Below are positions 28,539-59,516 of a stretch of 64,000 nucleotides of DNA, in pieces. A model generated the notes under the pieces. It saw only the letters and a list, made by a program, of their open reading frames with translations, ran no database searches and was not told the origin of the DNA. Both the position numbers and the translations under genes were made by a program. Origin of the DNA: Actinomycetota bacterium (lineage in GTDB: Bacteria; Actinomycetota; Thermoleophilia; Solirubrobacterales; 70-9); assembly GCA_018268675.1 (NCBI GenBank), contig JAFDWB010000089.1:124001-188000 (forward strand), given 5' to 3'. The stretch's first letter is position 1; every line of letters begins with the position of its first letter.

Positions 28539-28555
28539 CAACGGGACGACCCCCG

Positions 28556-28602
28556 GTGAGTTCGCAGAAACCCGCGGATGGCGCGGGAAAGTGCGAACTC
28601 AC
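28556..28602. repeat. Hairpin 3 of array 1 (family A, inverted)
   Basis: An 11-bp outer stem (28556-28566 with 28592-28602), a 4/4 unpaired step, a six-bp inner stem and the loop GATGG. Its reverse complement matches the hairpins at 45820 and 48630 at most positions. Confidence 0.88.
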
Positions 28603-28615
28603 TGGGGCCCTCCCA

Positions 28616-28665
28616 CGCGCTGCAGTCATCGGTGTCGTCCTGGCGACACCAATCACTGCAGCGCG
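28616..28665. repeat. Hairpin 4 of array 1 (family C)
   Basis: An 11-bp outer stem with a CTGCAG core (28616-28626, 28655-28665), a 4/4 step, a seven-bp inner stem GGTGTCG/CGACACC and a six-base loop. It is related to the hairpin at 48891-48946. Confidence 0.88.
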
Positions 28666-28686
28666 CCGCCCCTGGGCGCCCACCGC

Positions 28687-28735
28687 GTTGATGGGCCGAA
28701 AACCGCTCTATATCAGCGGTTTTCGGCCCATCAAC
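28687..28735. repeat. Hairpin 5 of array 1
   Basis: Perfect 21-bp arms (28687-28707, 28715-28735) around the loop CTATATC. Unlike its neighbours it has no unpaired step. Confidence 0.9.
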
Positions 28736-28770
28736 ATCGGGGCCTGGGGAAGGCTCACGGAATCCGCGCG

Positions 28771-28804
28771 GATGCCGGCGGGACGCGCACCGTCCCTTGC
28801 CATC
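28771..28804. repeat. Hairpin 6 of array 1 (weak)
   Basis: A six-bp inner stem GGGACG/CGTCCC with a five-base loop, an unpaired step and GATG/CATC outside. It has the same layout as the others but is short, so it could be chance in this GC-rich context. Confidence 0.5.
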
Positions 28805-28839
28805 TCTATGACGACGGCGCCCGGCCCGACGCACGCCAA

Positions 28840-28891
28840 GGCGCGGCCATCCCCCTCATAACCGCCGAACCATGAGGGGGATGGCCGCGCC
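28840..28891. repeat. Hairpin 7 of array 1 (family D, inverted)
   Basis: Perfect 20-bp arms (28840-28859, 28872-28891) with a 12-base loop. The loop and the CCCCTCAT core relate it to the first hairpin of the array. Confidence 0.9.
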
Positions 28892-45727: not shown

Positions 45728-45819
45728 CCGGCGAAGCTATTCGACCGACAGATCGCCGTCAATCGGCGGGGGTGCGTCGGTGTGGCTGGCTGACGCCCGA
45801 CGGCGTGCGCCGGGCCGGC

Positions 45820-45862
45820 GAGTTCGCACTTCTCCGCGCTATCCGCGGGTTTCTGCGAACTC
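45820..45862. repeat. Hairpin of family A between aquaporin and kinase genes
   Basis: A nine-bp outer stem GAGTTCGCA/TGCGAACTC, a 5/5 unpaired step (CTTCT/GTTTC), an inner stem CCGCG/CGCGG and the loop CTATC. It matches the hairpin at 48630 closely in the same orientation and the one at 28556 in reverse. Confidence 0.88.
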
Positions 45863-45872
45863 ACCACGGCGC

Positions 45873-45898: not shown

Positions 45899-46786
45899 TC
45901 ACACCGCAAGGAAGTCGGCGTCGGTCAGGGCCGCCCGGAGGACGGCGACCGCGTCCTCCCACGGGCCCGGGCCGCCCATCTGCCGACGCCGGTGCGCGAA
46001 CTGGACGCCGGCGACGGTCGTCCACCAGCGGCGGTCCGAGGGGGTCGGGGTCCATGTGCCGGCGAGAGCGTCGAGGTAGCCGGCGGTGACCGAGGCGGCG
46101 CGGGAGCGGTGGTCGCGCGCATCGAAGCCGCGCGGGCCGGAGCCGAGGAGGGCGATGAAGGCGAGGCGGGCGAGGTCGAGGCCGCGGGGGGCGACGAAGG
46201 CGTCCTCCCAGTCGATCACCGCCCCTTCCCCGCCGTCGTCGAGGAAGTTCCCCGGACCGGGGTCACCGTGGGTGAGCACCAGTGGGGCGGGCTCGGGGAT
46301 TGCGGCGGAGGCGAGGCGCTCCCAGTCGGGGACCGCCGTGGCGACCGGGTCGAGGCAGGCGCCCAGGTCCTCGACCCGCCGGGCGTGCTCCCGCCCGAAT
46401 GCGGCCCGGCCGAGCACGCGCAGGCGGGTGGCCGGCGCGGCGGGGGCGCCGAATCGCGCGAACGCCCGCCCCATCCGCCGCCAGCCGTCGTCGGTCCTCG
46501 GCGCCTCCCCCGGCAGCCGCTCCGTCACGAGGCAGGCATGCCGCTCCCCGCCCAGGAGCACCTCGCCGCTCGCGAGGACTCGGGGCGCGGGGCCGCCGGC
46601 CGCGGCGATCTCCTCGAGCGCCCACCGCTCGCGCTCCAGCGCCCCCGCGATCCGCTCGAGCTTGACCACCACCCGCTCCCCGCTCGCCTCCAGCACGCCG
46701 AACACCACCTCGTGCCGCGCCCCCTGCGCGGGCCGGCCCTCGACGAGGACCGCGGGGCCGCCGTCGATGACGATCCGCCCCTCCAC
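45899..46786 (-). CDS. Aminoglycoside phosphotransferase-fold kinase
   Basis: This 295-residue protein has the small-molecule kinase core: VVVKLERIAG for ATP binding, the catalytic loop LTHGDPGPGNFLDD and the metal-binding VIDWEDAFVAP. Family members phosphorylate antibiotics, choline or sugars, and resistance cannot be inferred. The GTG at 46784-46786 follows the fusion-protein stop by one base, so the two are co-transcribed. Confidence 0.85.
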   Translation of the reverse strand: MEGRIVIDGGPAVLVEGRPAQGARHEVVFGVLEASGERVVVKLERIAGALERERWALEEIAAAGGPAPRVLASGEVLLGGERHACLVTERLPGEAPRTDDGWRRMGRAFARFGAPAAPATRLRVLGRAAFGREHARRVEDLGACLDPVATAVPDWERLASAAIPEPAPLVLTHGDPGPGNFLDDGGEGAVIDWEDAFVAPRGLDLARLAFIALLGSGPRGFDARDHRSRAASVTAGYLDALAGTWTPTPSDRRWWTTVAGVQFAHRRRQMGGPGPWEDAVAVLRAALTDADFLAV

Positions 46787-46787
46787 C

Positions 46788-48530
46788 TCAGCCGGCCAGG
46801 CTCTTCTCGAACCAGCGATCGGCCGCGTCGTTGCCGTTGTAGTCGGGAACCTCCGCGTAGCCGCGGGCGCGATAGAGGGCGATCGCCTCGGCGAGGACGT
46901 CGGCGGTGTCGAGCCGCACCGAGCGGCAGCCGCGCTCGCGGGCGAGCATCTCCAGACGGCCGAGCAGCGCTCCGCCGACACCCTCCCCCCGCGCGTCCGG
47001 CGAGACGTACATCCGCTTGACCTCGGCGATCGCGCCGCCCAGGCCGCGGACGGCGCCCATGCCGACGGGGCGACCGTGGCGATGCGCGACGAGGATCGCC
47101 CCGTCGGGCGGCTCGAGGTCGGCCGGGAGGCTCGTCCCGGTGGGCGCATGGCCGCGGCGGCGATCGACCTCGGCGCTCAGGGCCGCGTCGAAGAAGGTCA
47201 GGACCGGGTCCGAAGTCCGCGCGTCGCGGAACTCGATCGCCCCGGAGCCTTCGGGCCCAGACCCGCTCTCGGGAGCGGCGAGCGAGAGGACGAAGCCGCG
47301 CAGATACCGCCCGACCGCGGCGGGATCCTCGAGCCACGGCGAGTGCCCGGCGCCCGCGATCGGCGCCCAGACCCCACGGGGAGCGATCCGGCCAACCTCA
47401 CGGGCGCCGGGGTCGGGATCGGCCTCGCCATGCAGGACGAGGACCGGCACCGGGAGCGCCGCCAGCTGGTCCTCGATCCCGCCGTCGAGCCGGCGGCGCC
47501 AGTCGTCCTCCACCGACCGGGCGACCGCGTCCGCGCGGGGGTACTCGTAGAGAGGGCCCCGTTCGAGCGCCCCGTCGGCAGCCGCGCGGGTCGCGAAGTC
47601 CGTGGTCCAGAGGAGGCGCAGGAAGCGCGCCCTGGCCTCGTCGTCCTCGCGGCGCGCGAGCCGCAGCGCCAGCGTGTCGAGCTCCTCCCGCTCCGCTGCC
47701 GTCAGCCGCCGCATCCGCTCGGCGTGCGCGCGCTCCCGCGCCTCCCACCGGATCGAGGTGCCGCCCAGGTAGACGACCCCGAGCGTCCGCTCCGGATGCG
47801 CCAGCGCGTAGAAAAGCGCCAGCGCCGCGCCCCACGAATGGCCTCCGACGATCCACCGCTCGTGACCCCAGTGTCGCCGCAGCGCCTCCAGGTCGGCGAC
47901 GAAGGTCTCGACGTCGAACGGCCCACCGCCGGCAGAGCGACCGCCTCCCCTCTGGTCGTAGAGGTGGACCGCGGCGACGTCGTCCACCATCCCCGCGATC
48001 GGCCCCAGATTGTTCGAGAGCCCAGGCCCGCCGTGGGCGAGGACGAGCGGGGTGCCCGCGCCGACCGACCAGGTCCATAGCGATGCCCCTGGTACCGCCA
48101 CCGCCTCCTCCGCCCCGCCGAGCCGGTCCAGGGCGGCCTCGTAACGGGCGACGCGCGCCGACACCTCGGGGGTCACGGGCAGCCTGCGGTTGTTGGCGAG
48201 GTTGTCGGCGATGTCCGCCATCTTGACCCGTCGGGCAAGCCCGTTGGCGGCGACCCGCGCGATGTAGGAAGCGTAGGTCTCCCCCGGATCGCGGGTGAGA
48301 GCCACGACAGCGTCGACTATCTCCGGCGACATCCCCGCCTCGACCAGATCCCGCGCGGTCGTCGGCGTGTCCTCGAGGATGTCATGCAGGACCGCGACGC
48401 TCCGCGCCGCCGCGTCCTCGAACGCCAGCATCACCCGGAAGAGGTGGAGCACATAAGGCTCGCCCTGAGGCGTCGGGTAGACCTGCCCGCGATGCGCCTC
48501 GCAAGCCATGCCGATGGCGCGCCCAAGCAT
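46788..48530 (-). CDS. Three-domain fusion: HD phosphohydrolase + alpha/beta hydrolase + GNAT acetyltransferase
   Basis: This is a continuous 580-residue frame. Residues 1-140 form an HD domain like small alarmone hydrolases (MESH1/SpoT type): H29, H49-D50 in VLHDILEDT and D106 in VKMADIADN. Residues 145-420 form a proline-iminopeptidase-like alpha/beta hydrolase with HGGPG (166-170), nucleophile S232 in GGHSWG, D371 and H396. Residues 430-580 form a GNAT domain with acetyl-CoA loop RGEGVGG (514-520). The ATG at 48528-48530 begins the HD domain directly. No frame breaks are seen, so the fusion looks genuine. Its role is unknown, and it is coupled to a kinase-fold gene. Confidence 0.82.
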   Translation of the reverse strand: MLGRAIGMACEAHRGQVYPTPQGEPYVLHLFRVMLAFEDAAARSVAVLHDILEDTPTTARDLVEAGMSPEIVDAVVALTRDPGETYASYIARVAANGLARRVKMADIADNLANNRRLPVTPEVSARVARYEAALDRLGGAEEAVAVPGASLWTWSVGAGTPLVLAHGGPGLSNNLGPIAGMVDDVAAVHLYDQRGGGRSAGGGPFDVETFVADLEALRRHWGHERWIVGGHSWGAALALFYALAHPERTLGVVYLGGTSIRWEARERAHAERMRRLTAAEREELDTLALRLARREDDEARARFLRLLWTTDFATRAAADGALERGPLYEYPRADAVARSVEDDWRRRLDGGIEDQLAALPVPVLVLHGEADPDPGAREVGRIAPRGVWAPIAGAGHSPWLEDPAAVGRYLRGFVLSLAAPESGSGPEGSGAIEFRDARTSDPVLTFFDAALSAEVDRRRGHAPTGTSLPADLEPPDGAILVAHRHGRPVGMGAVRGLGGAIAEVKRMYVSPDARGEGVGGALLGRLEMLARERGCRSVRLDTADVLAEAIALYRARGYAEVPDYNGNDAADRWFEKSLAG

Positions 48531-48629
48531 CTCGATCCCGCCATCCCAAGTTCCTGCGCCGCCAACCAACCGTCCGCCCTCCGTCTAGGTGGACTCGGCG
48601 AGCCTAGATGGTCGTCCCCCGTCCCCGGC

Positions 48630-48668
48630 GTTCGCACTTTCCGTCGCATACCGCAGGTTTCTGCGAAC
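48630..48668. repeat. Hairpin 1 of array 2 (family A)
   Basis: Outer stem GTTCGCA/TGCGAAC, a 5/5 unpaired step (CTTTC/GTTTC), a weak inner stem and the loop CATAC. Similarity to 45820-45862 continues past the stem into ACTCAC. Confidence 0.8.
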
Positions 48669-48714
48669 TCACCGCGGGAAAGAGAACCGGCGAAAGGAAG
48701 AAGGGTCACGAGGT

Positions 48715-48743
48715 GGTGACGGGAGCCGCACGGGTCCGTCACC
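48715..48743. repeat. Hairpin 2 of array 2
   Basis: GGTGACGG/CCGTCACC arms (48715-48722, 48736-48743) with 13 bases between. It is short and has no clear relative. Confidence 0.6.
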
Positions 48744-48784
48744 GAAGTGGGAATTCGCCGTCGCCTCGAGGACGCCCCTCCCTC

Positions 48785-48827
48785 CAGCTGTTCCTTATGC
48801 CGACCAGTCCGGCAAAAAGAACAGCTG
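48785..48827. repeat. Hairpin 3 of array 2 (family B, inverted)
   Basis: A nine-bp outer stem CAGCTGTTC/GAACAGCTG, a 4/4 step (CTTA/AAAA), the inner stem TGCCG/CGGCA and the loop ACCAGTC. It is the reverse-complement counterpart of the hairpin inside the glycoside hydrolase gene at 19313-19359. Confidence 0.92.
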
Positions 48828-48838
48828 ACCCGGGTCGG

Positions 48839-48882
48839 CCGGGGAACGGGAGGTCCGTCACCCTTCCTCCCGTCTTCCTCGG
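48839..48882. repeat. Hairpin 4 of array 2
   Basis: Arms of about 15 bp (48839-48853 with 48866-48882) with one wobble pair and a small bulge, around a 12-base loop. Confidence 0.65.
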
Positions 48883-48890
48883 ACGTCCGG

Positions 48891-48946
48891 GACACGCTGC
48901 AGCGATAAGCGTCGCTGGGGCGACACTTATCGCTGCAGCGAGTGTC
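48891..48946. repeat. Hairpin 5 of array 2 (family C)
   Basis: A 15-bp stem CGCTGCAGCGATAAG/CTTATCGCTGCAGCG (48895-48909, 48926-48940), a single mismatch, the inner GTCG/CGAC and a six-base loop. It shares the CTGCAG core and the GTCG..CGACAC centre with 28616-28665. Confidence 0.9.
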
Positions 48947-48969
48947 GGGGCCCCGATCTCGGCCTTGAA

Positions 48970-49020
48970 AGGGCACGGAAGTGTGACGTCCCCGTCATCT
49001 TCGTCACGATCCCGTGCCCT
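48970..49020. repeat. Hairpin 6 of array 2
   Basis: A nine-bp outer stem AGGGCACGG/CCGTGCCCT, a 4/4 unpaired step, the inner stem GTGACG/CGTCAC and a 13-base loop. Confidence 0.8.
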
Positions 49021-49036
49021 CTTCCCCACGCACCCC

Positions 49037-49102
49037 TCACGTCCCGGGCGCCTCATGGGGGTCACAGCCTGCCAGGAGCCCCATGAGGCGCCCGGGGCGT
49101 GA
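49037..49102. repeat. Hairpin 7 of array 2
   Basis: 24-bp arms with one mismatch (49037-49060, 49079-49102) around an 18-base loop, the longest stem in the window. Confidence 0.9.
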
Positions 49103-49160
49103 CTCGGACGGCCGCCGGCGCCCCGGACCCTCCGCCGTCCCTCCCCGCCGAACCAACCAC

Positions 49161-49562
49161 CTACCGGTGGGGCTCGGTGACGTAGAACATGTTGCCCTCC
49201 GGGTCGTAGATCGGGCGGTAGCGGTACCAGGCGCCGGAGGGGTGTTTCCATTCGATGATCTCGGCGGCCCACTCGACCTGACCGTCGAGGCGGGCGATCT
49301 CGGCGTCCAGGTCCTCGACCTCGAAAGCGAGGGAGTCCCAGCCCGGGCGGTTGACCTCGTTGACCGGGGTGCGACGGGGGAGGTCGGCCTCGTGGGTGGT
49401 CTCGAAGATGAAGATGGTGAGGTTGCCGGCGTCGAGGGCGACCCAGCCCTCCTCGCGCTCGAAGGGGAAGTGGAACGGCAGGCCGAGGACGCCGTGGTAG
49501 AAGTCGGCGATCACGCCGACGTCGCGGCAGAGCAGGTCGACGTTGTCAATTCGCGCGTACAT
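49161..49562 (-). CDS. VOC (glyoxalase-fold) metalloprotein
   Basis: This 133-residue two-module VOC protein has MYARIDNVDLLCRDVGVIAD at the N-terminus, the ligand-like LTIFIFETT and the terminal PIYDPEGNMFYVTEPH. The family includes lactoylglutathione lyase-like, dioxygenase and resistance proteins, and the reaction is not readable here. It is the last gene of the polyamine-importer/hydantoinase operon and overlaps the C45 amidase gene by 17 bases. Confidence 0.85.
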   Translation of the reverse strand: MYARIDNVDLLCRDVGVIADFYHGVLGLPFHFPFEREEGWVALDAGNLTIFIFETTHEADLPRRTPVNEVNRPGWDSLAFEVEDLDAEIARLDGQVEWAAEIIEWKHPSGAWYRYRPIYDPEGNMFYVTEPHR

Positions 49563-50697
49563 CGAGCACCTCCTGGTCGGGATGGTTCGGTGGGACGAAG
49601 ACCTCGGTCCAGCTCTCCGGGCCGGCCTCGCAGGGACCGCCGTCGGCGAAGCGCAGGCGGCCCGCGGCGGGATCGACGAGGACGGTGGCGAGGGTGGCGT
49701 AGCGGTCGCCGAGCCCCGCACCGGGCTCGGGGTGGCAGCAGACCGCGCCGCCGCCGCCCAGGTGGCTGCGGAAGGCGGCGAGCATCTCCTCGCCGCCCGC
49801 GGGCGCGGTCAGGTGGCCGGCGCGCCGCCGCATCAGCTCGAACCGGAAGAGCGAGTCCGGGCCGACCACCGGCTCGAGGTCGCCCGCCTCGCCCCCCGGC
49901 GAGAGGAAGTGATTGGTGTGCACGAGGTGCCCGCGCTCGTCGGGCAGCACGTACCCGGGGCGCGCGCCGGGGCGCAGCTCGGCGGTCAGCGCCGTCCCCT
50001 CCCCGCCCTCGGCCGCCACCAGCGTCACCGCGCTCGAGGCCGCCGGGGCGAAGGAGCCGAGCAGCCGCAACGCGTCGAAGATCGTCTCCGACTCGCCGAG
50101 GATGCGCCGGAGCAGGGCGTGGATCGGCACCCCGAGAGCGACCGACGCGTCGTCCTCGTGGTGGAGCACGTTCAGCAGCACCGCGATCCCGGCCGAGTTC
50201 ACCCCGAGCTTCGCCAGCACCCCGGCCTCGGTCAGCGTCTGCACCCGCATCCCCGACTCTTCCTCGAGGCCCCAGACGAGCCAGGTCGTGGCGAACTCGT
50301 CGTGCCAGTCCCAGGTCTGGGCGCCGAGCGGGCCGTCCGCCTCGCTCTCGACCGCGACCATCACCGTGCACTCCCCCCGCCCCGGGAGCCGGCGCCGCCG
50401 CGCCACCTTGGCGAGGATCTCGGTGCGCGCGTTCAGCGCCGCGACCTGCGCCGCCCCGAGCCCGGCGCCGTCCGCGATCCCCTCGATCTCCTCGGCCAGG
50501 TGCGGCGCCCAGGCGGCGACCGCGGCGAGCGCCTCCGCCCCCCACGCCTCGACCTCCTCGCGCCCGCAGAGCCCGCCCGCCTCGAAGTGCTCCAGATACC
50601 CCGCCCAGCTCGCCCCGACCAGCTCGGCGCGCGCCCGGCCGAACTCGCGGCCGCGCTCCCCGGGCCGCCGAGAAGCGGTCGCGACCAACCGGCTCAT
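49546..50697 (-). CDS. C45-family Ntn amidase (acyl-CoA:6-APA acyltransferase-like)
   Basis: This 383-residue N-terminal-nucleophile hydrolase has the probable self-cleavage and nucleophile Cys at C110 (GECTVMVAVESE), followed by DGPLGAQTWDWHDE and AGIAVLLNVL. The family cleaves or transfers acyl-amide bonds and matures by autoproteolysis. The ATG overlaps the NodB-fold gene stop (ATGA). In this operon it may hydrolyse a linear amide made by the hydantoinases. Confidence 0.85.
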   Translation of the reverse strand: MSRLVATASRRPGERGREFGRARAELVGASWAGYLEHFEAGGLCGREEVEAWGAEALAAVAAWAPHLAEEIEGIADGAGLGAAQVAALNARTEILAKVARRRRLPGRGECTVMVAVESEADGPLGAQTWDWHDEFATTWLVWGLEEESGMRVQTLTEAGVLAKLGVNSAGIAVLLNVLHHEDDASVALGVPIHALLRRILGESETIFDALRLLGSFAPAASSAVTLVAAEGGEGTALTAELRPGARPGYVLPDERGHLVHTNHFLSPGGEAGDLEPVVGPDSLFRFELMRRRAGHLTAPAGGEEMLAAFRSHLGGGGAVCCHPEPGAGLGDRYATLATVLVDPAAGRLRFADGGPCEAGPESWTEVFVPPNHPDQEVLDVRAN

Positions 50698-51542
50698 CGG
50701 CCCGGCGCCGCCGCCTCGGCCAGCCGCGGCCCGACGTGGTCGGCGACCTCGTCCAGGCGGGCGAACCAGACGTCGCCGGCGGCGACCATCTCCTCCACCA
50801 GCGCCTCCAGCGCGGCGAAGCGGTAGGCGCGGCCGATCACCTCCGGGTGCATGGTGAAGGTCACGTGGCGACCCTCCTCCCGCGCCGCCCGGAACTCGGC
50901 CAGCCAGGAGTCGCGCAGCTCACCCACGTCGGCGACGTTGCCGCCCCCGTCGATCGCCCAGCCGAACCGCGGCCAGTCGTCGAGCGACCAGTGCACCGGC
51001 AGCTCCAAGATGCGCTCCCCCTCCCACTCCTGCAGGTAGGGGCGGTCGTCCCCCATGCAGCTCGAGTCGTAGGCGAACCCGTGCCGGCGCAGCAGCGCGA
51101 ACGTCTCCGGGGTCAGCTCCCAGGAGGTCGAGCGGTAGCCGCGCGGGACCGGCGCCCCGGCCGCCGCCAGTGCCTCCAGGCCGCGCTCGATCTCCTCCCG
51201 CTGGGCCTCCGCCGACACCTTGTCGCTGCGCAGGTGCAGGTACCCGTGGTGGCCGATCTCGTGCCCGCCCTCGAGCAGCGCCGCGCACAGCCCGGGGTGG
51301 CGCTCGGCGGTGTCGCCGGGGACGAAGAAGGTCGCCGGGATGCCGAGCCGCTCCAGCAGCCCGAGGATCCGCGGCACCCCGCGGCGCACCCCGAACGCCC
51401 CCTCCGAGAGCGTCGTGATCCGCCGCCGGTACTCCTCCCCCTCGCCGAGAAAGCCGGACTCGGCGTCGACGTCGAAGGTGATGCTGACGGCGACCGCGGC
51501 ACCGCCGGGCCAGCCCCAATCGGTGGTGCCGCGGTCGCTCAT
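50694..51542 (-). CDS. NodB-fold polysaccharide deacetylase/PuuE-like hydrolase
   Basis: This 282-residue cytoplasmic protein (no signal peptide) has the NodB Asp pair in ITFDVDAES (D24, D26) and metal His in IGHHGYLH (H99, H103). Later markers are YRSTSWELT and VTFTMHPEVIGR. Lack of export and the hydantoinase context favour a cyclic-amide or allantoinase-like (PuuE) hydrolase over a cell-wall deacetylase. This is inference. Confidence 0.83.
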   Translation of the reverse strand: MSDRGTTDWGWPGGAAVAVSITFDVDAESGFLGEGEEYRRRITTLSEGAFGVRRGVPRILGLLERLGIPATFFVPGDTAERHPGLCAALLEGGHEIGHHGYLHLRSDKVSAEAQREEIERGLEALAAAGAPVPRGYRSTSWELTPETFALLRRHGFAYDSSCMGDDRPYLQEWEGERILELPVHWSLDDWPRFGWAIDGGGNVADVGELRDSWLAEFRAAREEGRHVTFTMHPEVIGRAYRFAALEALVEEMVAAGDVWFARLDEVADHVGPRLAEAAAPGR

Positions 51543-51552
51543 CGCCGCGCCC

Positions 51553-53658
51553 CTAGGCCGAGACGGCCCCGGTCAGCGCCCCGCCCGCGGCCCCGGCCGC
51601 CGGCGCCACCTCGATCAGGAACCCGTCGGCGTCGCGGCGCTCGAGCACGTCGCCCTCGTGGAGGACGATCGTGGTCGTCGGCGCGGCGACGATCGCCGGG
51701 CCCCGCACCGAGGCGCCGACGCCGAGCGCGGCGACGTCGTAGATCGGCGTCTCCTCGACCTCGCCGCTCGCCGTCGAGTAGGCCTCGGTCGTCCGCATCG
51801 GCTGCACATCACCGGCCTCGGCCGCGGCATCCGGGCGCGCGGCCGCGGCGCCGGTGCCGATCGCCGCCACCCGCCAGTGCAGGCACTCGATCGGCATCGT
51901 GGTCCGGTTGTAGGCGAACTGGGCGAGGTGCTGCTCGTGGAAGGAGCCGACCAGCGTCGCGATGTCGTCGGGACCGAGCCGCGGGGTACTCGGCACCGGC
52001 ACGGTGATCTCGTGGACCTGGCCGGGATAGCGGGCGTCGACCTCGCGCTCCAGCGTGATCTCGTCCTCGGTGAACCCCTCCTCGAGCAGCTCGGCCCGCG
52101 CCGCCCCCTCCATCTCGGCGATCGTCGCGTTGACCGCGTCGAGGTCGATCGTGTCGGTCACCTGGTGGAGTGCCGTGACGTGATCGTGGCGGACGTCGGT
52201 CACCGTCATCCCGAAGGAGCAGAAGACGCCCGCCTCGAGCGGCACGAAGACCTTCTCGATCCCCAGCTCGCGCGCCAGCTCGGCCGCGTGCAGGCCGCCC
52301 GCGCCGCCGGCGCAGACGAGCGTGAAGCGGCGCGGGTCGACGCCGCGGTCGACCGAGACGGCGCGGATCGCGCCGACCATGTTGGCGTTGACGACGCGGA
52401 CGATCCCGGCCGCCGCCTCGACCGTCGAGAGCCCCAGCGGACCGCCGACGAACTCGTCGACCGCCGCCCGCGAGAGGTCGTCGCGGAGCCGCCGCCGGCC
52501 GCCGAGGAAGGCGTCCGGGTTCAGGTAGCCGAGCACGACGTTGGCGTCGGTCACCGTCGGTTCGGTGCCGCCCTGGTCATAACAGGCCGGCCCCGGGTTG
52601 GCCCCGGCGCTGCGCGGCCCGACCCGCAGGGCGTCGCCGGCGTCGACCCAGCCGATCGATCCGCCGCCGGCGCCGATCGAGTGGACGTCGACCGCGGAGA
52701 CGCCGATCGGCTGCCCCTCGACCTGGATCTCGCGGCTCATCGCCGCCCGTCCGTCTTCGATCAGGCAGACGTCGAGGCTGGTGCCGCCCATGTCGACCGA
52801 GATCAGGTTGTCGCCGACCGAGCCGGCGAAGTGGAGCGCCGCCGCGGGCGCCGCGGCCGGGCCGGAGGCGAGGATGTTGACCGGCCGGGCGAGGATCTCC
52901 GGGACCCGGGCGCAGCCGCCGTTGATCTGCATGATCAGCAGCGGCGAGGCGAGCCCGCCGCCCTCGAGCTGGGCGGTCAGCGCGGTCAGGTACTCGCGGA
53001 TCTTCGGCATCACGTAGGCGCTCATCGCGGTCGCCGAGGTGCGCTCCCACTCGCGGATCTCCGGCAGCACGTCGGCCGAGCAGATCACGTCGACGCCGGG
53101 CAGCTCCTCGCGCAGGATCGCCGCCGCGCGCTGCTCGTGCCGCGGGTAGAGCATCGACCAGAGGAAGGCGACGGCGACGGCGCGCACGCCCGCCTCGCGG
53201 AACTGCGCGGCGGCGGCCCGGACCTCGTCCTCGCCGAGCGGCGCGACCTCCTCGCCGGTCGGGTCGAAGCGGCCGGGGACACCGATCCGCAGCCAACGGT
53301 CGACCAGCTCCCGCGGGTGCGGCAGGTGCATGTTGAAGCGCTCGGGCTTGTAGCCGTCGCGGAAGTAGAGGACGTCGCGGAAGCCCTCGGTGCAGAGCAG
53401 GCCGATCGTCGGCCCGTTGCGCTGGATCAGCATGTTCGTCGCCACCGTGGTGCCGTGGACGAAGAGCTCGGTCTCGCCGAGCAGGCCCTCGACGTCCGTG
53501 TCCAGCTGCTCGGCCACCGCGGCGAGGCCCTGGACCACGGCGCGGCCCGGGTCGTCGGGGGTCGAGTCCTGCTTCCACAGCAGCAGCTCGCCGCTCTCGC
53601 GGGCGACGGTGAAGTCGGTGAAGGTGCCGCCGATGTCGACACCGATGCGATAACTCAT
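51553..53658 (-). CDS. Hydantoinase/oxoprolinase A subunit (copy 1)
   Basis: This 701-residue ATP-dependent subunit has the N-terminal phosphate motif GVDIGGTFTDFTVA, HGTTVATNMLIQRNG, the metal/phosphate segment SVDMGGTSLDVCLI and GAGGGSIGWVD. It pairs with a B subunit to open five-membered cyclic amides such as hydantoins or 5-oxoproline using ATP. It follows its B partner (53691-55583) by 32 bases, the reverse of the order in copy 2. Confidence 0.92.
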   Translation of the reverse strand: MSYRIGVDIGGTFTDFTVARESGELLLWKQDSTPDDPGRAVVQGLAAVAEQLDTDVEGLLGETELFVHGTTVATNMLIQRNGPTIGLLCTEGFRDVLYFRDGYKPERFNMHLPHPRELVDRWLRIGVPGRFDPTGEEVAPLGEDEVRAAAAQFREAGVRAVAVAFLWSMLYPRHEQRAAAILREELPGVDVICSADVLPEIREWERTSATAMSAYVMPKIREYLTALTAQLEGGGLASPLLIMQINGGCARVPEILARPVNILASGPAAAPAAALHFAGSVGDNLISVDMGGTSLDVCLIEDGRAAMSREIQVEGQPIGVSAVDVHSIGAGGGSIGWVDAGDALRVGPRSAGANPGPACYDQGGTEPTVTDANVVLGYLNPDAFLGGRRRLRDDLSRAAVDEFVGGPLGLSTVEAAAGIVRVVNANMVGAIRAVSVDRGVDPRRFTLVCAGGAGGLHAAELARELGIEKVFVPLEAGVFCSFGMTVTDVRHDHVTALHQVTDTIDLDAVNATIAEMEGAARAELLEEGFTEDEITLEREVDARYPGQVHEITVPVPSTPRLGPDDIATLVGSFHEQHLAQFAYNRTTMPIECLHWRVAAIGTGAAAARPDAAAEAGDVQPMRTTEAYSTASGEVEETPIYDVAALGVGASVRGPAIVAAPTTTIVLHEGDVLERRDADGFLIEVAPAAGAAGGALTGAVSA

Positions 53659-53690
53659 CTCTAGTTCTCCTCTTGTCTCGCTCGCCGCGC

Positions 53691-55583
53691 CTAGAGCAGC
53701 GGGTCGAGCTCGTAGGTGTCGCCGTCGCGCATCTGGTTCTTCAGCCAGGGCGACGCGTTCGGCTCGGTCGGGCTGACCACCGGGCGCTCGACCTTGGCCA
53801 GCTCGCCACGCCGCGCCGCGGTCGCGTCCGCGTCGATCACCGGGTCGGCGTCGGCGGAGAGGACGACGCCGAAGACCTCGGCCGCCGCCTCGCGGCTGAC
53901 GATCCCGTCGCGGACGTCGATCCGCACCTGCTCCGCGTCGCGCTCGTGCGGGTTCCCCCAGCCGCCGCCGCCGGTCGAGACGCCGACGTAGACCTCGCGC
54001 GTGTGGTCGACCTTGAAGGCGCCGGAGGAGGAGACGAAGCGGCGCTTGCCGGTCTGCTCGTCCTCGACGTACTGGCCGCCGCCGCTGCCCTGGCCGCCGC
54101 CCATCGCCCCGTGGGGCGGGTTGGAGGCCGCGTCGCCGAAGGTGATCGTCACCATCTCGTCGACCAGCGGGCGCACCGCGCAGATGTTGCCGGGGCCGCC
54201 CAGCCACTGGCCGAAGCCGACCGAGTCGACGTCGATCTCGCAGCGGTCGATCCGCACCGGATAGAGCAGCTCGAGCTGCTCGATCGGCTGGATTTTCATC
54301 CCCCCGAGGGCGGCCTGGTTGTACCAGAGGGGCCAGCCGTCGTTGCCTTTCGCGGCACCGCCGGCGCCGGCGTTGTTGAAGAGCATGAAGCCCCAGGGCG
54401 AGTGGCCGTCGGCGCCGTTGCCGGCGAACTGCGGGATGTTGCCGCAGCGGGCGCCGCCCGCCGGGACCCGCTCCGGCATCGCCTCCACCATCGCCCGGTT
54501 GACCACGTCCTGCATCAGGTCGGAGGGGACGATCGTGGCGACGCTGGTCGAGGCGGGGAATTTGGCGTAGCAGACGGTCCCCTCTTCGGCCGAGACCGAG
54601 ACCCGTTCGATCACCCCGTGGTTGTGCGGGATGTCGGCGTCGATGTAGTAGAGGAACGGCACCGCGCCGGCGGCCTGCGAGGTCGCGTAGCTGCCGTTGG
54701 CGCCGCCGCGCGCCTGCGGGTCGGAGCCCGCGTAGTCGACCCGCACCTCTTCGCCCGCGATCTCGACCTCGACCTGCACGCGGATGTGCTCGCGGCCGAA
54801 GCCGTCGGAGTCGATCCAGCCCTCGGCGGTGTAGGTGCCGTCGGGCATCGAGGCGAATTCCTGGCCCGCGCGGCGGCTCGAGTAGCCGATGATCTCGTCG
54901 ACGTAGCGCAGCACCACGTCGGTGCCGTACTGGGCGCAGAGCTCCTCGAGGCGCTGGCGGGCCTTTTCGATCGAGCCGATCTGCGCCCGCAGGTCGCCCT
55001 CGATCAGGTCGGCGTAGCGCAGGTTCGCCAGCAGCAGGCGGAAGAAGTCCTCGCGCAGCACGCCCTCCTCGACCATCTTCATCGGCGGGATCGTGATCCC
55101 CTCCTGGTAGATGTCGGCGGCGGAGGCGACGACCGAGCTCGGGATGTAGGCGCCGGTGTCCATCTGGTGCCCCTTGGTCACCGACCAGAAGACGAGCCGC
55201 CCGTCGGCGAAGACCGGCGCCGCGGTGACGAAGTCGCCGACGTGGGTGTTGCCCGAGTAGGGGTCGTTGAAGAGGAAGACGTCGCCAGGGTTGATCTCGC
55301 CCTCGAAGGCCTCGGCGATCTCGCGCACGGCGATGTGCAGCGAGGCGGTGTGGATCGGCAGCGCGTCGTACATCGACACCTGCCGCGGCACCGCGTCGTA
55401 GATCGCGCACGAGTAGTCGTGGGCGAGCGCCAGGATCGAGGTCCAGGCGGACTTCTCCAGCACCCGCGTCATCTCCTCGACGATCGCGTCGAAGCGGCTG
55501 AGGATCACGCTGAAGGTGATCGGGTCGTAGTCGCCTCCGGCCGCGGTGGCGGTCGGGGTGGTCATCGTCTGGGTGGGCTCCAT
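53691..55583 (-). CDS. Hydantoinase/oxoprolinase B subunit (copy 1)
   Basis: This 630-residue subunit has FLFNDPYSGNTHVGDFVTAAP, the central GGANGSYATSQAAGAVPFLYY and the C-terminal GGGGWGNPHERDAEQV, all typical of HyuB. The ATG at 55581-55583 follows a GGAGG about 12 bases upstream; an internal ATG at residue 7 is an alternative. It lies between the second B gene and its A partner. Confidence 0.92.
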   Translation of the reverse strand: MEPTQTMTTPTATAAGGDYDPITFSVILSRFDAIVEEMTRVLEKSAWTSILALAHDYSCAIYDAVPRQVSMYDALPIHTASLHIAVREIAEAFEGEINPGDVFLFNDPYSGNTHVGDFVTAAPVFADGRLVFWSVTKGHQMDTGAYIPSSVVASAADIYQEGITIPPMKMVEEGVLREDFFRLLLANLRYADLIEGDLRAQIGSIEKARQRLEELCAQYGTDVVLRYVDEIIGYSSRRAGQEFASMPDGTYTAEGWIDSDGFGREHIRVQVEVEIAGEEVRVDYAGSDPQARGGANGSYATSQAAGAVPFLYYIDADIPHNHGVIERVSVSAEEGTVCYAKFPASTSVATIVPSDLMQDVVNRAMVEAMPERVPAGGARCGNIPQFAGNGADGHSPWGFMLFNNAGAGGAAKGNDGWPLWYNQAALGGMKIQPIEQLELLYPVRIDRCEIDVDSVGFGQWLGGPGNICAVRPLVDEMVTITFGDAASNPPHGAMGGGQGSGGGQYVEDEQTGKRRFVSSSGAFKVDHTREVYVGVSTGGGGWGNPHERDAEQVRIDVRDGIVSREAAAEVFGVVLSADADPVIDADATAARRGELAKVERPVVSPTEPNASPWLKNQMRDGDTYELDPLL

Positions 55584-57441: not shown

Positions 57442-59516
57442 CAGTCGCCTCCCTTCCCGACCTCGATCAGGAAGCTGTCGTCCTCGTCGCAGCGCAGCAC
57501 GTCGCCGGGTTCGAGCAGGATCGTCGTCGTGTCGCCGGCGACCACCGCGGGGCCGTCGACGCGGCTGCCGGTGGCGAGCGCCTCGACCTTGAAGAGCGGC
57601 ACCGCAGCGACCTCGCCGAGCGCGGGGACGTAGACGCGGCGCTCGCCGAGCGGCGCCGCCGCGACGGTGGTCGCGACCGCCGCCACGGCGCCTTCGTGCA
57701 GCAGGTCCATCCGCCCGACCGCGGCGGCCCGCCAGTGCAGGAACTCCACCGGCAGCTCCTCGCGCCGGTAGCCGAACTGGCGCTCGTGCTCGGCGTGGAA
57801 GGCGTCCTCGATCTGCGCCAGGTGCTCGGGGCCGTAGCTCTCGGCGGCAGGGATCGCGACGGTCAGCTCGTAGACCTGGCCCGGGTAGCGGGCGTCGACC
57901 GAGCGCTCGACCCGGATCTCCTCGGCGGCGAAGCCGTCGTCGCCGAGCCGCGCCCGGCCGCGCTCCTCGAGGCCCGCGTAGAGCGCGTCGAGGGCGGCCG
58001 AGTCGAGGCTGTCGGAGGTGCAGTGGAGCGGCTGCAGATAGTCGTGGCGGACGTCGGTGACGGTCATCCCGAAGGCGCAGAGCGTCCCCGCCTCGCGTGG
58101 GATCACGACCCGCTCGATGCCGAGGTCGCGGGCCAGCGCCGAGGCGTGCAGGCCGCCCGCGCCGCCACCGACGACGAGGGCGAAGTTGCGCGGGTCGAGG
58201 CCGCGCTCGACCGAGACGGCGCGCACGGCGGCGGTCATCGAGGCGTTGACGACGCGGATCACCCCGGCCGCCGCGGCGACCGGGTCGAGGCCGAGCGGCT
58301 CGCCGACGCCGGCGGCGATCGCCTGCTCGGCGAGGTCGGCGCGCAGCTCGCGGCGGCCGCCGAGGAAGGCCTCCGGGTCGAGGTACCCGAGCACGACGTT
58401 GGCGTCGGTGACGGTCGGCTCGGTGCCGCCGGCGCCGTAGGCGGCCGGCCCGGGGACCGAGCCGGCGCTGCGCGGGCCGACGTTCAGCGCGCCGCCCTCG
58501 TCGACGTAGGCGATCGAGCCGCCGCCGGCACCGACCGAGTGGACGGCGACGGCCTCCACCCCGACCGGCTGCTGGTCGACCCGGATCGAGCGCGAGCGGG
58601 CGGCCCGGCCCTCGCGGACGAGGCAGACGTCGAAGCTGGTGCCGCCCATGTCGATCGTGATCACGTCGCGCAGGCCGCGCCGGCCGGCGTGGTGCGCGGC
58701 CGCCGCGGGCGCCGCCGCGGGGCCCGAGTGGAGGGCGTAGACGGGCCGCTTGAGGACCTCGTCGATCGGCGCGCAGCCGCCGTTCAGCTGCATGATCAGC
58801 GGGTCCTCGCCGAGCCCGGCGGCGGCGATGTCGCTTTTCAGCCGGCCGAAGTAGGCGTCGATCCCCGGCAGCACGTAGGCGGAGAGGACGGCAGCAGAGG
58901 TGCGCTCCCACTCGCGGATCTCGGGGACCACGTCGGCGGAGCAGACGACATAGGCATCGGGCAGCTCCTCGCGCAGGATCGCCGCCGCGCGGTGCTCGTG
59001 GTCGGGGTTGACGATCGACCAGAGGAAGGCGACCGCGACCGCCTCCACCCCGTGCTCGCCGAGGTAGGCGGCGTGGCGGCGCACCTCGTCCTCGTCGAGC
59101 GGCGCGACGACCTGGCCCGCCGGGCCGATCCGCTCGCTCACCCCGCGGCGCAGGAAGCGCTCGACGAACGGCTCGGGCGGCGCGAAGCGCATGTTGAAGC
59201 GTTCCGGCTTCCAGGCGTCGCGGAAGTAGAGGACGTCGCGGAAGCCCTTCGTCGCCAGCAGGCCGATCCGCGGGCCGTTGCGCTGGATCACCGTGTTGGT
59301 GGCGATCGTCGTGCCGTGGACCAACAGCCGCGCTTCGCCGAGCAGCTCGGCGACCGGGCGGTCGAGGCTGCCCGCCAGCCCCTCGAGGCCGGTGAGGATC
59401 GCCGCCATCGGGTCGGCGGGCGTCGTCGGCTCCTTCCAGAGGTGGGCGCGGCCCGATTCCTCGAGCGCGGTGAGGTCGGTGAAGGTGCCGCCGATGTCGA
59501 TGCCGATGCGCAGCAA
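57441..59516 (-). CDS. Hydantoinase/oxoprolinase A subunit (copy 2)
   Basis: This 691-residue HyuA subunit has GIDIGGTFTDLTA, HGTTIATNTVIQRNG, TIDMGGTSFDVCLV and GAGGGSIAYVDEGG. The start is a TTG at 59514-59516 with AAAGGG about six bases upstream. It follows the permease genes, so its substrate is probably what the importer brings in. Confidence 0.92.
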   Translation of the reverse strand: MLRIGIDIGGTFTDLTALEESGRAHLWKEPTTPADPMAAILTGLEGLAGSLDRPVAELLGEARLLVHGTTIATNTVIQRNGPRIGLLATKGFRDVLYFRDAWKPERFNMRFAPPEPFVERFLRRGVSERIGPAGQVVAPLDEDEVRRHAAYLGEHGVEAVAVAFLWSIVNPDHEHRAAAILREELPDAYVVCSADVVPEIREWERTSAAVLSAYVLPGIDAYFGRLKSDIAAAGLGEDPLIMQLNGGCAPIDEVLKRPVYALHSGPAAAPAAAAHHAGRRGLRDVITIDMGGTSFDVCLVREGRAARSRSIRVDQQPVGVEAVAVHSVGAGGGSIAYVDEGGALNVGPRSAGSVPGPAAYGAGGTEPTVTDANVVLGYLDPEAFLGGRRELRADLAEQAIAAGVGEPLGLDPVAAAAGVIRVVNASMTAAVRAVSVERGLDPRNFALVVGGGAGGLHASALARDLGIERVVIPREAGTLCAFGMTVTDVRHDYLQPLHCTSDSLDSAALDALYAGLEERGRARLGDDGFAAEEIRVERSVDARYPGQVYELTVAIPAAESYGPEHLAQIEDAFHAEHERQFGYRREELPVEFLHWRAAAVGRMDLLHEGAVAAVATTVAAAPLGERRVYVPALGEVAAVPLFKVEALATGSRVDGPAVVAGDTTTILLEPGDVLRCDEDDSFLIEVGKGGD

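Follow-up and report, generated by a model that had tools for sequence, protein, structure and literature searches.

A three-domain fusion of an SAH-type HD domain, an alpha/beta-hydrolase and a GNAT acetyltransferase found in a single actinobacterial genome

A gene in the window, the whole 64,000-nucleotide stretch of DNA that was analysed, encodes a 580-residue protein in which an HD domain of the small alarmone hydrolase (SAH) type, an alpha/beta-hydrolase and a GNAT acetyltransferase follow one another (Table 1). The fusion is real, rare and clean, is built of known domains and is present in one genome: the parts lie in one frame, their motifs are intact, their homologues are separate in relatives and the junctions between them are clean. 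It probably arose in one lineage through the joining of three independent enzymes, each catalytically complete, and would be expressed from a likely two-gene operon with an APH-fold kinase, its HD domain acting as an SAH. We know of no earlier SAH fused to two other enzymes, and the available portions of the literature searched gave no description of an SAH fused with a hydrolase and a GNAT domain.

Table 1. Features of the fusion gene and its surroundings (window positions; residue numbers refer to the fusion protein)
Feature	Position	Strand	Basis
Fusion gene, 580 aa, SAH-type HD + alpha/beta-hydrolase + GNAT	46788..48530	-	ORF, Pfam, 7smg, phrog_990, motifs
HD domain, residues 1-138, small alarmone hydrolase type	48117..48530	-	7smg; Foldseek; phrog_990; motifs
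Junction 1, HD end RLGG straight into hydrolase AEEAVAV	48099..48128	-	Relatives' ends, frame analysis
Alpha/beta-hydrolase, residues 139-420	47271..48116	-	Pfam; triad; 62% to standalone gene of G181
Gly/Ser/Pro-rich linker (about 421-430) and GNAT to residue 580	46791..47270	-	Pfam; RGEGVG; genus-mate GNATs
APH-family (PF01636) kinase-fold gene, GTG start	45899..46786	-	PF01636 E 8.4e-22; junction DNA
Dispersed ~460-bp repeat, four different hairpins, upstream of fusion gene	48688..49147	.	Genome matches
~48-bp hairpin repeat, copy upstream of operon	48630..48677	+	Repeat search
~48-bp hairpin repeat, second copy, same direction, downstream of operon	45815..45869	+	Repeat search

The frame runs for 580 codons without an internal stop, from an ATG at 48530 to a TGA ending at 46788 on the minus strand, at the coordinates given in the preliminary description; a TTG at 48569 is a possible earlier start that would add 13 residues. 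Other frames over the same stretch are open for up to 430 codons, and length is weak evidence in DNA this rich in GC; the frame is taken as coding because there is homology in all three of its parts. GC at codon position 3 stays even throughout (0.84-0.98 in windows of 50 codons), with no break at either junction. For the gene as a whole this value is 0.90, lower than the 0.948-0.975 of five neighbours, and the gene may thus have arrived recently from elsewhere rather than been assembled locally. No Rfam family reached its gathering score in the window, and no promoter-like sites were found near the gene.

The HD part, which the Pfam search left unscored, matches the (p)ppApp hydrolase of PDB entry 7smg over residues 2-131 (E 2.2e-18) and phrog_990 (E 2.8e-41). 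In an AlphaFold2 model built on a 13-row alignment, residues 1-130 have pLDDT block means of 88-97, and Foldseek superposes the modelled domain on 7smg with an rmsd of 1.6 A, a target-normalised TM score of 0.90 and 35% identity. The human HD domain-containing protein 3 (3nr1), which we take to be MESH1, is a much weaker match (E 1.4e-4), so that the label "MESH1-like" given at first sight is right as to the HD family but not as to the closest member, which is 7smg. The HD motifs are H29, H49-D50, E53-D54 and D106; presumably H29, H49, D50 and D106 are metal ligands and E53-D54 the catalytic acid pair, as in RSH hydrolases. Aligned with nine HD relatives, this part carries the H, HD, ED and D motifs that mark an SAH within the RSH superfamily. 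SAHs have been defined as an HD domain alone (PMC3153485, accessible part). The protein has no synthetase domain, yet a hydrolase and a GNAT domain are fused to its HD domain; by its motifs, the segment of residues 1-138 is classed as an SAH domain, while the whole protein falls outside the strict definition of an SAH.

A single match to PF04607 (RelA_SpoT synthetase) occurs in the genome, on another contig and within a frame of 772 codons, which is what one would expect of a housekeeping Rel. Because this sole synthetase match is Rel-like, the HD domain would be an orphan SAH; the genome search with PF04607 found no toxic small alarmone synthetase of the toxin-antitoxin type beside it. According to the accessible part of PMC9765508, an orphan SAH of Xanthomonas has NADPH as well as several alarmones among its substrates and influences both stress and competition. 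The SAH of Methylobacterium prefers (p)ppApp, and the base preference of SAHs is described as not yet readable from their residues (both from the portion of PMC7644958 available).

In the middle of the protein, Pfam Abhydrolase_1 (PF00561) covers residues 161-372 with E 4.2e-18, over its curated cut-off. This match, the Foldseek matches and a Ser-Asp-His triad of S232 (within GHSWG), D371 and H396 identify an alpha/beta-hydrolase fold, with an oxyanion motif HGGPG at 166-170. Its solved relatives, whether found through sequence or through fold, include iminopeptidases and esterases, and the same AlphaFold2 model supports the domain, apart from a low-confidence hinge at residues 140-145. The scores against two NCBIfam models of proline iminopeptidases are 65.3 bits for a cut-off of 259.75 and 64.1 bits for one of 167.65; "iminopeptidase-like" therefore describes the nearest fold but not the family.

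The C-terminal part is recognised as a GNAT acetyltransferase by Pfam Acetyltransf_1 (PF00583; residues 472-558, E 6.7e-15, 55.8 bits against a cut-off of 20.7) and by RGEGVG at 514-519. The acetyl-CoA binding motif of GNAT enzymes is (R/Q)xxGx(G/A). This part is modelled poorly, with pLDDT below 50 at 460-516 and 562-580, because the alignment supplied to the predictor contained no relatives of the GNAT. All three domain assignments of the preliminary description are thus borne out, by Pfam for the hydrolase and GNAT and by 7smg and phrog_990 for the HD domain, and each catalytic motif set is intact, as it had supposed; the roles of the residues in the HD, hydrolase and GNAT motifs are assumed from family knowledge.

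Relatives that carry the domains singly locate the joins. A free HD protein of the same genus (G042), 56% identical and encoded by a 148-aa frame, ends with RYEAAIARLAP and a stop where the fusion reads RYEAALDRLGG. A free hydrolase from another family of the order (G181), 62% identical and paired with the fusion's domain in the tree (support 100/99), begins MQEHVAVPGA against GAEEAVAVPGA in the fusion, a start that is inferred in a frame open further upstream. The end of the standalone HD protein, the beginning of the standalone hydrolase and junction 1 coincide. After a one-base slip at this junction the next stop would lie 137 or 238 codons away, which fits no free HD protein seen; of the two frames shifted at junction 2, one reaches a TGA after another 13-23 codons. 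Codons 416 to 470 of the GNAT frame include no ATG, GTG or TTG, so that the GNAT domain could hardly start alone. A missed stop or frameshift is unlikely, since slips at junction 1 give no nearby stop and the GNAT domain has no start codon of its own. The preliminary description had named, as what would overturn it, separate genes in all relatives with such an error here: in every relative that was found the genes are indeed separate, but nothing points to a stop or frameshift that was missed in this genome.

Where did the parts come from? In the fetched loci, no close relatives of the HD, hydrolase, GNAT and APH genes were seen linked to one another, and an ancestral four-gene operon was rejected on this ground. 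The GNAT domain clusters in the tree with free GNATs of genus-mates (support 87/83), and standalone GNATs from seven of them are 44-59% identical to it. In all seven this GNAT2 adjoins another, GNAT1, and in six the pair has clpX and clpP on its two sides, the clp genes being named by us from their presumed resemblance to known sequences; around the pair of the seventh (G040) neither was found in 2.6 kb. The count covers these seven genomes, the family search having found no such GNAT in the other four of the eleven genus-mates. The genome with the fusion keeps clpP, GNAT1 and clpX in order, with no GNAT2 there. The fusion's GNAT domain therefore probably derives from GNAT2 of the genus's clpX-GNAT1-GNAT2-clpP locus, although tree support is moderate, and the simplest reading is that GNAT2 moved from the clp locus to become the C-terminal domain; loss of GNAT2 with gain of a related GNAT is a less simple possibility. 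Elsewhere in the family, another genus has an SAH-type HD protein (L037:4874-5719, 48%) with an additional C-terminal stretch of about 120 aa that matches nothing in Pfam.

Searches of 50 genomes from the family, 232 from the order, 399 from the class and 396 from the phylum each found the full-length fusion once, always in this genome; these sets overlap, those of class and phylum are drawn samples, and strict limits of 1e-18, 1e-32 and 1e-32 applied to order, class and phylum. This accords with the suspicion that the architecture is an unfamiliar one. A scan of 84,980 species by exact peptide words, which reaches close relatives only, gave four, three of the hydrolase part and one of the HD part, and a search of the order with the HD domain alone, at a limit of E 1e-9, was positive in 7 of 232 genomes. 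Viral contigs hold 13 relatives of the HD domain and none of the GNAT domain or hydrolase. A phage or plasmid origin of the whole was rejected, as none of 416 matching phage records and none of 474 matching plasmid records covers 80% of the protein. The sole assembly that carries the fusion has 95 contigs and is 96.65% complete with 3.13% contamination.

The kinase-fold gene noted beside the fusion is an APH-family gene that starts one base past its TGA, and the two likely share an operon. The preliminary description also placed a hairpin array next to the fusion. This array is the ~460-bp repeat, of which a 331-base query has 14 matches in the genome, itself included (at least 88% over at least 300 bases), besides more diverged ones at 72-79%; copies stand at the start of about ten contigs, and no Rfam family corresponds to the repeat. 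Because this is a dispersed genomic repeat, its nearness says nothing on function, and it is better regarded as a bystander. The ~48-bp hairpin repeat around CCGCRGGTTTCTGCGAACTCACC has 56 copies in the genome, against none for a reversed-pattern control, and a further copy in the window at 28551-28598. The two copies that flank the operon are no ground for calling it a mobile cassette, about one same-strand pair within 2.8 kb being expected by chance. In the clpP-clpX region of this genome (L121), the gap between clpP and GNAT1 holds hairpin repeats like those at window positions 28551-28843. Upstream of the fusion gene, positions 49164-51542 hold nearly overlapping genes of the same strand for a VOC/glyoxalase-family protein, an AAT-family acyltransferase and a polysaccharide deacetylase. 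Two genes with hydantoinase A-like starts follow at 51553-55583 and 57444-59516, adjoined by further large genes of the same strand; their DIGGTFTD motif we take to be a mark of hydantoinase A, and amide or hydantoin catabolism is a possible role of this region.

How might such a protein work? The N-terminal HD domain would act as an SAH, its metal held by H29, H49, D50 and D106 with the E53-D54 pair assisting, and would remove the 3'-pyrophosphate from (p)ppApp, possibly from (p)ppGpp, or the phosphate from NADPH. The middle domain would hydrolyse a small ester or amide through its Ser-Asp-His triad, and the C-terminal domain would use acetyl-CoA to acetylate a small amine. Most likely the active sites would be separate enzymes tethered to one another under one promoter, rather than stations handing on one intermediate. 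A more ambitious proposal is that a trifunctional enzyme ties the breakdown of an alarmone (or NADPH) to the hydrolysis and acetylation of small metabolites, so that stringent signalling and metabolic or protein modification are set at once, the clp-locus acetyltransferase having moved behind a hydrolase and an SAH in one lineage; as a whole, this seems doubtful.

Could the protein serve detoxification instead? The hydrolase, the acetyltransferase and the APH kinase might act on one small molecule, such as an antibiotic-like nucleoside or an aminoglycoside, on which the HD domain would also act by taking off a phosphate or a pyrophosphate. The APH fold that begins one base after the fusion's stop, the VOC/glyoxalase-family gene just upstream and weak matches of the GNAT domain to several aminoglycoside and streptothricin acetyltransferase models would suit such self-resistance. 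However, every resistance-model score is far under its cut-off (24.4 against 270 bits, for example), the APH gene reaches 22.3 bits where APH(3') requires 205, and the HD domain is by sequence a standard alarmone hydrolase. Moreover, the genes for kinase, acetyltransferase, hydrolase and HD domain are not linked in the fetched relatives, save that in locus L102 a hydrolase of weak similarity (27%) lies about 1.5 kb from the APH gene, and we consider self-resistance unlikely. The HD domain is closest to a (p)ppApp hydrolase, and it could confer immunity to (p)ppApp-making toxins from rivals or from phage-defence modules, with the other two domains as passengers. An SAH of phage PVP-SE1 relieved a toxic synthetase, as cited in the accessible part of PMC7644958, and the phage record is 42% identical to the HD domain. 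This too is a poor prospect, distinctly less probable than not: the genome search showed no toxic synthetase, the one PF04607 match lying in the 772-codon frame, and at E 0.01 PADLOC matched none of the four proteins searched (fusion, APH, AAT and deacetylase), a result on which a defence system, as suggested in the preliminary description, was rejected.

Two further explanations concern the product itself. An internal GTG at codon 144, five bases behind a GGAGG and near the beginnings of free hydrolases, might yield a hydrolase-GNAT protein without the HD domain beside the full fusion, but this GGAGG can equally be explained as the codons of a Glu-Glu pair that free relatives also have (for example VREEAVPV in L086), and a second product is very improbable. 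Least probable of all is an artefact, whether a chimaeric contig or a base error that joined separate genes. The fusion is known from one assembly, the dispersed repeat that starts about ten contigs lies just upstream, and an error at junction 2, where a shifted frame soon meets a TGA, is less firmly excluded; against this, the repeat lies outside the gene, both junctions sit within a uniform frame of even codon use, an error of one base at junction 1 restores no nearby stop and the GNAT domain lacks its own start. A lineage-specific fusion of three complete enzymes is the explanation we prefer. If made whole, the protein would be a naturally occurring fusion of three enzymes, one of them an alarmone-hydrolase domain, and would stand, given that its counterparts in relatives are unlinked, as a clear example of enzymes fused recently. 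It would offer a direct handle on which reactions the cell finds worth tying to alarmone turnover, though its general weight is limited, as that of one genome and of a predicted function.

Each part has its known counterpart. The kinase gene is 48-54% identical to APH kinases of three genomes (G032, G038, G042) that are not linked to close HD, hydrolase or GNAT relatives. GNAT2 of the clpX-GNAT1-GNAT2-clpP loci (L005-L010, L012) is 54-59% identical to the fusion's GNAT over 110 residues in five of seven, and 44% and 47% in the others; the two are sisters in the tree, but GNAT2 is free-standing in the genus-mates and the GNAT is a C-terminal domain in the fusion. With proline iminopeptidase- and esterase-like hydrolases (1azw, 3nwo, 4uhc) the middle domain shares HGGPG, GHSWG and the Asp and His of the triad, whereas sequence likeness mostly stops past the N-terminal half and scores stay far under the iminopeptidase cut-offs. 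SAHs such as 7smg of Bacteroides caccae and those of phage PVP-SE1 (the PVPSE1 gene is 42% identical to the fusion's HD) and Xanthomonas share HD fold, motif order and length with residues 1-138. Unlike these known SAHs, which are an HD domain alone, the fusion adds two enzymes behind it.
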